A DNA stretch of 64,000 nt from Fimbriimonadaceae bacterium (lineage in GTDB: Bacteria; Armatimonadota; Fimbriimonadia; Fimbriimonadales; Fimbriimonadaceae): positions 2,459,564 through 2,523,563 of the forward strand of contig CP075366.1 of NCBI GenBank assembly GCA_019454145.1, given 5' to 3'. Positions 4,951 to 43,880 of this stretch are shown here, piece after piece. The position numbers and the translations under genes are program-made. How positions within the stretch are numbered: position 1 is the stretch's first letter; the number at the start of each line of letters is the position of its first letter. The notes beneath the pieces are model-generated. The model saw only the letters and a program-made list of their open reading frames with translations, was not told the origin of the DNA and did no database searches.

Positions 4951-4973
4951 AGTCTATGCGCTTCGCATAGACT
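4951..4973. terminator. Bidirectional hairpin overlapping a stop codon
   Basis: Perfect 10-bp stem AGTCTATGCG / CGCATAGACT with a 3-nt loop, between convergent genes. It encodes the last codons and stop of the minus-strand 86-aa gene, so that protein's C-terminal residues are dictated by the hairpin. Confidence 0.6.
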
Positions 4974-5214
4974 TCTCACCTTGAATCCGCTCCATTAGAA
5001 TGAGAGCAGGGGTGAGTTTTGCGCCGATCTTGCGTTTGCAGGCTGATCGTAAATCGAAGTCACTGACTTTCGACCATTCATAAATTTGTACTTGGGCGAG
5101 AATTTTTTCGCCGCTTATCCAGACTTGCACGTCAGCAACACCCGGTTGCTGGGAAAGAAAGTCTTGGGTTTTTGCAACATTAAGCTCTTCGTGCTCGACA
5201 ACTGTCAGGTTCAC
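4954..5214 (-). CDS. 86-aa protein resembling a free-standing ANL C-terminal domain
   Basis: No certain family. The order LSQQPGVADVQVWISGEKIL, then QVQIYEW, then DLRSACKRKIGAKLTP and LILMERIQ follows the C-terminal lid domain of acyl/aryl-CoA synthetases and NRPS adenylation domains (HPGVADAAV..GE.LVAFV...DLR..C...L..YKVP..I.FV). The adenylation catalytic domain is absent from this gene and its neighbours. The last residues GEKSMRSA recall the catalytic S-G-K-x-x-R but are encoded by a terminator hairpin, so this may be chance. It is the last gene of the gatC-to-here minus run, 30 nt after the nucleotidyltransferase. Confidence 0.55.
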   Translation of the reverse strand: MNLTVVEHEELNVAKTQDFLSQQPGVADVQVWISGEKILAQVQIYEWSKVSDFDLRSACKRKIGAKLTPALILMERIQGEKSMRSA

Positions 5215-5244: not shown

Positions 5245-5970
5245 TTAACCCCTAGTTATTGCTTGATATTGTTCGTATGAATCAATATCCGTTCCGATAT
5301 CGGCAGCGTAGGTGATGACGCCTTTTACTGGCACCTTAAGAAACTTGCCGACCGATTTTTCTAAGCCGCGGATCGTGACGGCTTTTGGAATGGTTTTCGC
5401 CCCGACCATTCTAATAAGCGTACTGAATCCAGCGATCTTGCCAAGTTGGATTGGACTCTTTCGGGCAGCGTAGGCGCGTTCTACTATCGGTAGAGCAGAT
5501 TGACACGCAGTTCTTTCGATGAGGCAGATGTTTCCGCCGGTAAAGTGGCCTTCGCGTAACTTGAGGCTGGTTCGTGGAAGTTGTGGGTACTCCTTCATGC
5601 AAAGCTCAACCGGAATGACAGGGTAGTTGAAGCCAGCTTCCGGGTCGCAGTTACTCAGAAAGGCGTGGATTGATTCTGCTTTGAGGAAGGGAAGATCCGC
5701 GAAGATAACAAGATACTGTGCCGACTGAGCGAGGCTGTTGGCAATAGAAAGGCTTTCGACAAACGAATCTCCGCCAGGGGCTTGCCGCCACGATTCTCTG
5801 TTTGGCCCTCCTATGACGAGCGGTTCACCAAAGGTTTTTGCGACGTCGTAAACACGATCAACCATTGGTGTGCCATCAATCGGCAATTCAGAACGGAATG
5901 TGCAACCACTCGCTTCTTGATCTCGCTCTTTTAGTTTTCCGCCGGCTAGGATGATAATGTCGTGGCTAAT
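5245..5970 (-). CDS. MobA-like nucleotidyltransferase, apparent ATT start
   Basis: NTP-transferase of the MobA/IspD fold; the substrate is unknown. The first conventional start codon (TTG at 5884-5886) gives 213 residues but omits the defining N-terminus. Reading upstream in the same frame gives SHDIIILAGGKLKERD, the nucleotide-binding LAGG motif, with no ATG, GTG or TTG. The best start is ATT at 5968-5970, four codons before IIILAGG, with GGGAGG four nt before it; this gives 241 residues. A metal-binding Asp lies in LVIFADLPF. The gene overlaps the ispE 3' end by 25 nt. A start at ATC 5971-5973 is possible. Confidence 0.75.
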   Translation of the reverse strand: MSHDIIILAGGKLKERDQEASGCTFRSELPIDGTPMVDRVYDVAKTFGEPLVIGGPNRESWRQAPGGDSFVESLSIANSLAQSAQYLVIFADLPFLKAESIHAFLSNCDPEAGFNYPVIPVELCMKEYPQLPRTSLKLREGHFTGGNICLIERTACQSALPIVERAYAARKSPIQLGKIAGFSTLIRMVGAKTIPKAVTIRGLEKSVGKFLKVPVKGVITYAADIGTDIDSYEQYQAITRG

Positions 5971-6779
5971 GATTCCTCCCGTGTGAGTGTTCGGGCTAAG
6001 TAAGTTTCCCCCAACTCTTCAGATTTTATGTGTTTCTCTGCCTGTTGGGCAAGAGCCTCGGTTTCAAAAACTCCAAAAACCGCCGATCCGGAGCCGGAAA
6101 GCAAGGCTCCTTTTGCTCCGTGGACTTGCAATCGTTCGGCGATCTCGCCGCAAATACAAGGGGCGACCCGCTCGAAGTCGTTATACAGCTCTTTGAGATC
6201 AGTCGGAAATTCTCTATGTGGTCGTTCCGTTGAATCCAGTTTCTTGTATGCTTGCGGCGTCGAGATCCCTGCTTCTGGTTTCACCAGCAGTAGGTGCCAA
6301 ATTTCTGGATCTGGAAGGGGCTCAATAAATTGACCATAGCCTTCCGCTTTTGCCGCCCCGCCAGTTAAGAAAAAAGTGACGTCTGCCCCGACCGCAAAAG
6401 CAACTTCTCGCTGGTACTGCTCGGTCACAAAGTGGGGAGCAACCGTTCCAAGTGCCCGTAATAGGCCAGCCGCGTCGGATGAACCTCCGCCCAGTCCTGC
6501 CTCGTTGGGAATGTTCTTGGTTAGCTCGATTCTTAGGGGCGCAATGGGAAGCAGTTCTCGCAAGAATCGCAACGTCTTTGTCAGAGTGTTATTTGCCGGG
6601 AGGTCGCCCCAGTTGCAGATAATCTCATCCTTGCCAGAAGGCGAATCTTGGATAGATAACTCATCAGCGAGCGAAATCGCTCTGAAAATAGACCGGATCG
6701 GATGGTAGCCGCTATGATCGGGCGGATCAACCGCAAGGAATGAATTTATCTTTGCTGGGCAGATTGTTCGGCAGATCAA
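5946..6779 (-). CDS. ispE: 4-diphosphocytidyl-2-C-methyl-D-erythritol kinase IspE
   Basis: ATP-dependent kinase of the MEP isoprenoid pathway. 277 residues with the GHMP signature PNEAGLGGGSSDAAGLL, the early PAKINSFLAV segment with its substrate Lys, and the C-terminal ALLSGSGSAVFGVF motif. The start is TTG at 6777-6779, overlapping the stop of the upstream membrane-protein gene by 4 nt; it gives MICRTICPAKIN, which places the PAKIN motif at the expected distance from the N-terminus. The 3' end overlaps the nucleotidyltransferase. Confidence 0.93.
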   Translation of the reverse strand: MICRTICPAKINSFLAVDPPDHSGYHPIRSIFRAISLADELSIQDSPSGKDEIICNWGDLPANNTLTKTLRFLRELLPIAPLRIELTKNIPNEAGLGGGSSDAAGLLRALGTVAPHFVTEQYQREVAFAVGADVTFFLTGGAAKAEGYGQFIEPLPDPEIWHLLLVKPEAGISTPQAYKKLDSTERPHREFPTDLKELYNDFERVAPCICGEIAERLQVHGAKGALLSGSGSAVFGVFETEALAQQAEKHIKSEELGETYLARTLTREESLATTLSS

Positions 6780-19561: not shown

Positions 19562-20348
19562 CTATCGTGGAAACAAGAATTCTTTGCTGATCATAAAGAG
19601 CGCAACGGCGATGACAAATCCTCCAAAAATGGGTTTGAGTTTTTCCGGCGTAATGCGTTCTTTAAGACTGCTTCCGAACAGCGTTCCGACTACGCTAAGT
19701 CCCGTCAAAGAGAATGCAAATATCCAGTCAGTGGTGGAGTGAGATAGCGTGCCTGCAAACCCAAGAAGCGATTGGGCCGCGATGATCGCAAGAGAAGTAG
19801 GAATCGCCACTTTGATCGATACCTTGAGAATCTGAGTGAGGGCTGGGACAATTAGAAATCCTCCGCCTGCACCAAGATATCCGGCTAATGAGCCGACCGT
19901 GAATCCGACAGGCGTGGTCGTGAACGGTTTGCTAGTTTTTTTTTTCCTCTGATTCGGTTGCGTTGGCAGAAGGAAGGATCATTTTTACACCAACGATCAG
20001 CATTAAAAGGGCGAAAGCAATCAGCAAAAACATATCCTTAGAAATTCCTAAAATTGGGTCTGGCGTTAGAGGAACTAAGAACTGCCGGGCGAGGAACGCC
20101 CCTATTGATGATGGAATGGCAAATGCGATCACCGAACTCCAATGAACTTGCTTGTACTCTTTCGAGAGGATTAATCCAATGGCGGACGAAAGGCCAACAA
20201 CAAAAAGGCTGAGTCCGGTGCTTTGCTGTGCAGTCTGACCAAACAAATAAACGAGCACCGGAACGATGAGGATTGATCCGCCTCCGCCAAGCAGACCGAG
20301 GACAAATCCGACCGCAAAAACTCCGGCCCAGCCAAAAACTTCAATCAT
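19562..20348 (-). pseudogene. TauE/SafE-type anion permease, frameshifted at a 10-A tract
   Basis: Two adjacent reading frames together make one permease of the TauE/SafE family (sulfite, sulfonate or similar export). The first part (start 20348) has GFVLGLLGGGGSILIVPVLV and four to five helices, and runs into TAG just after EEKK. The second part reads VGFTVGSLAGYLGAGGGFLI and on to KEFLFPR in another frame. The junction is a run of ten A on the coding strand (19936-19945); nine A would join the frames into 261 residues, the normal family length. It may be a real mutation, a sequencing error, or a site of polymerase slippage. It follows the theme of the rhodanese genes 50 nt away. Confidence 0.85.
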
Positions 20349-20365
20349 GTACTAAAACAAGAGTA

Positions 20366-43256: not shown

Positions 43257-43880
43257 CTAAAAGAGTAATGGCTGGTTGACCAGCGATTTGATGGGTTCAA
43301 ATGACCGCCGATGAATAGGGCAGGGGCCGAGTTTTTCGAGTGCCGCAACATGAAAGGGATTGTAGTAGCCGAAATTCCGATCAAATCCATAGCCGGGATA
43401 CTCTAAGTTAGCTTCAATCATCAGGCGATCCCGAGTGACTTTGGCAAGGATCGAAGCGGCGGCAACAGCCGCGAATTTTCCATCGCCTTTCACCACCGTT
43501 TCCACCGGGCAAGGAGGGTTGGGTGGCAACTGGTTTCCATCAATGAGGGCATGCTTTGCTTGTGGGTCGAGTTCTCGCAGAGCTTGACTCATCGCTTGCA
43601 AAGTTGCCCGCAGGATGTTGAGCCGGTCAACTTCCTCGTGCGAAACGATCTGGATTGAGTAATTTGCCTCAGCCACAATTCGGGAAAATTGTCGCTCTCG
43701 CTCTTCAAACGAGAGTTGCTTGGAGTCGTGAATTCCGCTCGCATCAAACCCTTCTGGGAGGATCGCGGCGGCGACCACAAGCGGCCCGGCAATGGGGCCT
43801 CGACCAGCTTCGTCAACTCCTGCTATGCACGGGTCAAAAGGTAGGGATTCGATGCGATGGAAGATACCCTGGATTCGAAT
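43257..43880 (-). CDS. rnhB: Ribonuclease HII, apparent ATT start
   Basis: Removes RNA from RNA-DNA hybrids and single ribonucleotides. The first conventional start (GTG 43776-43778) would begin after the essential motif. In the same frame just upstream lies CIAGVDEAGRGPIAGPL, the metal-binding GxDEAGRG motif, and no ATG/GTG/TTG exists from there to the upstream stop region. ATT at 43878-43880 with AGGA 8 nt before gives 207 residues and an N-terminus of normal length. Other active-site acids: HALIDGNQLP and KVTRDRLM. Alternative starts: CTG 43908-43910. Confidence 0.85.
   Translation of the reverse strand: MRIQGIFHRIESLPFDPCIAGVDEAGRGPIAGPLVVAAAILPEGFDASGIHDSKQLSFEERERQFSRIVAEANYSIQIVSHEEVDRLNILRATLQAMSQALRELDPQAKHALIDGNQLPPNPPCPVETVVKGDGKFAAVAAASILAKVTRDRLMIEANLEYPGYGFDRNFGYYNPFHVAALEKLGPCPIHRRSFEPIKSLVNQPLLF

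Follow-up and report, generated by a model that had tools for sequence, protein, structure and literature searches.

Translation initiation at AUU is rare in bacteria: a published reconstruction that covered 61,358 ancestral AUG starts recorded a single change to AUU (PMC5622118), and the known AUU starts include those of infC, pcnB and cvfC1 (PMC1780047, PMC13009471). The AUU, AUC or AUA start of infC, the gene for IF3, serves autoregulation by IF3. In Escherichia coli pcnB, the AUU start keeps expression low (Binns and Masters 2002, as summarized in PMC1780047 and PMC13009471), and in Staphylococcus aureus an AUU start with a strong Shine–Dalgarno (SD) sequence is experimentally known for cvfC1 (PMC13009471). 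When the ATG of Listeria rsbW is replaced by ATT, a single change alters the products of both rsbV and rsbW, and the protein is still detectable (PMC13068326). Here we report a nucleotidyltransferase gene (NTase) of the Armatimonadota, overlapping the 3′ end of ispE, whose translation very probably begins at AUU; from the sequence comparisons described below, we place the probability of this reading at roughly 0.82.

The NTase start resembles that of infC, which in the same genome also has an AUU behind an SD sequence and no in-frame ATG, GTG or TTG. NTase differs in having no role as a translation factor and in starting within the gene that precedes it. To our knowledge, the pcnB AUU start is not lodged in an overlap of the NTase/ispE kind. 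Both pcnB and NTase have AUU starts outside infC, but pcnB belongs to a different family and its start has been shown experimentally. The AUU codon of cvfC1, like that of NTase, is conserved among relatives and has a very strong SD sequence, but it was mapped by Ribo-Ret and opens a 61-aa protein encoded by the first gene of an operon (PMC13009471). The nearest architectural parallel is provided by the Listeria rsbW ATT mutants, in which the start likewise falls within the 3′ end of the preceding gene, rsbV (PMC13068326). Those are selected laboratory mutants with an in-place change, whereas the NTase start has moved by one codon and is kept between species.

The source genome (G000), that of a Fimbriimonadaceae-type bacterium, is a single 2.76-Mb contig, and G001 to G007 are other genomes of the same genus. 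Within the stretch of 64,000 nucleotides analysed here (the window), the features of the locus are as follows.

5245..5970, minus strand: NTase open reading frame, ATT to TAA, 241 aa by translation.
5946..6779, minus strand: ispE (4-diphosphocytidyl-2-C-methylerythritol kinase; TIGR00154, 153.4 bits, cut-off 138.7).
6019..6021, minus strand: in-frame TGA closing the NTase frame upstream, read from the sequence.
5975..5980, minus strand: GGGAGG SD sequence within ispE; predicted duplex with the 16S tail GAUCACCUCCUUA, −10.3 kcal/mol.
5968..5970, minus strand: ATT, the proposed NTase start codon, the only in-frame near-cognate codon at a workable SD distance and identical in G004.
5965..5967, minus strand: AGC, at the column of the same-genus ATG (CTG in G002) in the codon alignment of the start region.
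5884..5886, minus strand: TTG, the first conventional NTase start, 28 codons downstream of the ATT, beyond LAGG and without an SD sequence.

NTase has a MobA-like NTP_transf_3 fold (Pfam PF12804, 29.6 bits, cut-off 27). In a profile comparison (profile A1), it matches TTHA0179, a hypothetical nucleotidyltransferase from Thermus and the nearest solved relative (PDB 2dpw), over the full length (E = 1.7e-47). By sequence comparison, NTase is thus a real, conserved member of a TTHA0179-like group of MobA-like NTP_transf_3 proteins. Its LAGG loop is variable within the genus, where LAHG and LAAG also occur. The closest named record is Fimbriimonadaceae bacterium ACE_ARM7 (G004), with 99% protein identity, and other near matches come from Armatimonadota metagenome-assembled genomes and from Uphvl-Ar1. 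Next to the Meiothermus relatives, the analysis detected no ispE.

After the TGA, the NTase frame reads AGA GTT GGG GGA AAC TTA CTT AGC CCG AAC ACT CAC ACG GGA GGA ATC ATT AGC CAC GAC ATT ATC ATC CTA GCC GGC GGA. Reading every codon between the TGA at 6021–6019 and LAGG in both G000 and G004, we found no ATG, GTG, TTG or CTG, which bears out the observation in an earlier note on this DNA that the LAGG motif is in frame upstream of the first conventional start. The sequence agrees with that note on two further points: the ATT at 5970–5968 sits four codons 5′ of IIILAGG with GGGAGG four nucleotides (AATC) before it, and NTase, read from this ATT, overlaps ispE by 25 nt, the ispE stop being the TAG at 5948–5946. 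The 16S 3′ end of G000 is intact, with CCTCC kept. SD-like starts are in modest use in this genome (44 of 167 sampled genes), with spacings mostly of 4–11 nt; the 4-nt spacing of GGAGG and ATT, found in 5 of the 44, is at the short end yet inside the range of this genome. The predicted RNA fold around the start is unremarkable (z-score 0.30).

The window contains 13 instances of GGAGG-N(4-9)-ATT, where 13.5 are expected, or about 1e-4 per position. The chance of an in-frame occurrence among the roughly 20 codons here is about 0.2%, a figure that is merely indicative because the SD sequence is inherited from relatives. The decisive evidence for the AUU start is comparative.

We compared the region around the start, codon by codon, in about 45 distinct loci related to this one. 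The nearest species, G004, has an NTase gene 89.5% identical to that of G000 at the DNA level, and both genomes read ...ATC ATT AGC CAC GAC ATT ATC ATC CTA..., with the same GGGAGG, spacing, ATT and missing conventional start. G003, G005, G006 and G007 instead read ...ATC (GCT/GTT/CCT) ATG CAC GAC ATT GTC ATC CTA..., in which the ATG aligns one codon downstream of the ATT, at the AGC column of G000. The start has therefore been displaced by one codon rather than swapped in place; the earlier note had proposed checking whether ATG or GTG replaces ATT at the same column in relatives, and it does not. G002 carries a CTG at the same-genus ATG column, and G001 is an exception, with its ATG two codons further upstream than that column. 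Nearly all of the remaining loci retain a conventional start close by: in most other genera it is an ATG, GTG or TTG, as a rule preceded by an SD sequence of the GGAG or GGAGG type.

In the ispE frame, loss of the ATG corresponds to a change from TGC (Cys) to GCC (Ala). The protein tree places G000 and G004 beside G005, G007 and G003, with G002 outside, although some inner forks are weakly supported. The steps can be read from the relatives: an ATG as in the sister species, a Cys-to-Ala change in ispE that removes it, and a move of the start by one codon in the upstream direction to an AUU with a strong SD sequence. The ATG-bearing sister species have weak SD sequences (−0.9 to −1.3 kcal/mol). 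We considered and rejected the idea that the strong SD sequence arose as compensation for AUU, as outgroup genera already carry GGAGG-type SD sequences. Two further observations concern the same gene in relatives. The G002 gene (L006), with GGGAGG 7 nt upstream of its CTG, has a second unconventional start for NTase, and the gene of G006 (Uphvl-Ar1; L007) is frameshifted near codon 94 with the remainder intact in another frame, reflecting either a sequencing error or a pseudogene.

The coding sequence itself is constrained. Between G000 and G004, NTase differs synonymously at 68 codons and nonsynonymously at 3 (dN 0.009, dS 0.61; dN/dS about 0.015), and the full-length gene is therefore under purifying selection; for ispE the values are dN 0.039 and dS 0.66. 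The AUU state has been kept over a dS of 0.61. The first 29 NTase codons contain no nonsynonymous and two synonymous differences, which by themselves are weak evidence because there are just two of them, and N-terminal constraint is backed by conservation of the first β-strand and LAGG region across the family. Conservation of the ATT could also stem from ispE, because these nucleotides encode part of its Ser-Leu. A 67-nt mismatch-free block around the ATT was rejected as proof of constraint, there being a 69-nt block nearby in ispE.

Other in-frame AUU or AUC codons lie close by, namely the ATC at 5973–5971 and the ATT and ATC codons of DIII (5958–5950), and initiation might occur at one of these instead. 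We consider it quite improbable, as only 1 nt separates the ATC at 5973 from GGAGG, too short a spacing, whereas the later ATT is 16 nt from the SD sequence and would leave almost nothing before the strand. A −1 frameshift on ispE, yielding an IspE–NTase fusion without any NTase start codon of its own, fits the relative frames, as NTase is read in the −1 frame of ispE and that frame has 19 open codons ahead of the D of DIIILAGG. Yet the ispE frame contains no X XXY YYZ heptamer within the overlap in G000 or G004, the closest ones lying 430 and 547 nt away from the end of ispE; moreover, the relatives own a start codon here, and a strong SD sequence lies exactly at the proposed NTase start. This route is accordingly very improbable. 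The chance is just as slim that translation begins at TTG 5886, the first conventional start and the choice of a gene caller limited to such codons. The resulting 213-aa protein would lack the LAGG loop and the first β-strand kept across the family, the TTG has no SD sequence 5′ of it, and G000 and G004 have no nonsynonymous difference in the 28 codons that precede it. Least probable of all is that the missing start reflects a mistake in sequencing or assembly, or that the gene is a decaying pseudogene: the source assembly does have one probable homopolymer frameshift elsewhere (a run of ten A in a TauE-like gene), but the start difference is a substitution and not an indel, a slip is very unlikely because two separately assembled genomes, at 89.5% gene identity and dS 0.61, lack the same start, and the dN/dS of about 0.015 argues against a pseudogene.

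Initiation at AUU is credible in this lineage because infC of the genus likewise has ATT or ATC behind an SD sequence and lacks ATG, GTG and TTG. This holds at the usual infC start in eight of eight genus genomes (L039 in G000; L037–L044 overall), where the SD sequence is of the AGG type; as exceptions, G001 has an ATG only where the conserved domain begins and G003 has one at the domain edge. Several infC genes in other Fimbriimonadales families show ATT, ATC or ATA in a partial survey, whose motif search missed many loci. The earlier note was right that ATT starts are rare, but its restriction of infC cases to enterobacteria does not stand, as infC of this genus also uses AUU or AUC.

For NTase, the proposal of genuine ATT initiation is thus supported by the lack of a conventional start, the ATT and SD sequence kept in G004, purifying selection, the absence of a slippery site and the AUU or AUC starts of infC. 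We propose that the strong GGGAGG inside ispE recruits 30S subunits, some of which are probably supplied by ribosomes that are translating ispE; translational coupling of the two genes is plausible from their overlap. Initiation with fMet-tRNA at AUU 5970 would then yield M-S-H-D-I-I-I-L-A-G-G, one residue longer than in the relatives. TTHA0179 has about four residues before the same hydrophobic strand, matching the M-S-H-D here. By analogy with infC and pcnB, the AUU start may keep NTase output low and sensitive to IF3; from known AUU cases we infer these two properties, as well as the coupling to ispE. On computational grounds, NTase is a well-supported new case of the known rare phenomenon represented by infC, pcnB and cvfC1, and, with few AUU starts documented outside infC, it adds one in Armatimonadota. 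Gene callers limited to ATG, GTG and TTG would remove the nucleotide-binding loop from the predicted protein or miss the gene altogether, and such starts are therefore under-counted.

We also screened 56 window genes and 187 genes in a 200-kb sample elsewhere for conservation upstream of the first ATG, GTG or TTG. In the window, the screen returned NTase, rnhB and a TauE-like gene with a homopolymer frameshift. No genome-wide excess of unusual starts was seen, with 0 convincing cases among the 187 genes of the 200-kb sample; two matches there were set aside, a small open reading frame near the sample edge (1640701–1640976) and a gene that begins at an ordinary ATG. rnhB (RNase HII; 43260–43853, minus strand) has no ATG, GTG or TTG upstream of DEAGRG, and its candidate start is the ATC at 43853–43851. 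In G004, an in-frame TGA directly precedes ATC GAA TCG, and the start column holds ATC in G003 and GTG in G002; an ATC start has been reported for Listeria rnhC (PMC13068326). That infC (AUU/AUC), rnhB (AUC) and the ispE-linked NTase (AUU) form a small gene set in this genus, jointly responsive to the IF3 level through their start codons, is an unlikely, speculative extension.

In the TauE/SafE-like gene (19565–20351, minus strand), the reading frame is broken in two where about ten A follow one another; the gene is continuous in G004. This probable homopolymer frameshift reflects either sequencing error or slippage. On the 3′ side of NTase, an 86-aa protein (4954–5214, minus strand), with no Pfam or NCBIfam match, is a conserved neighbour of NTase, present next to it at 12 or more of the 80 related loci.
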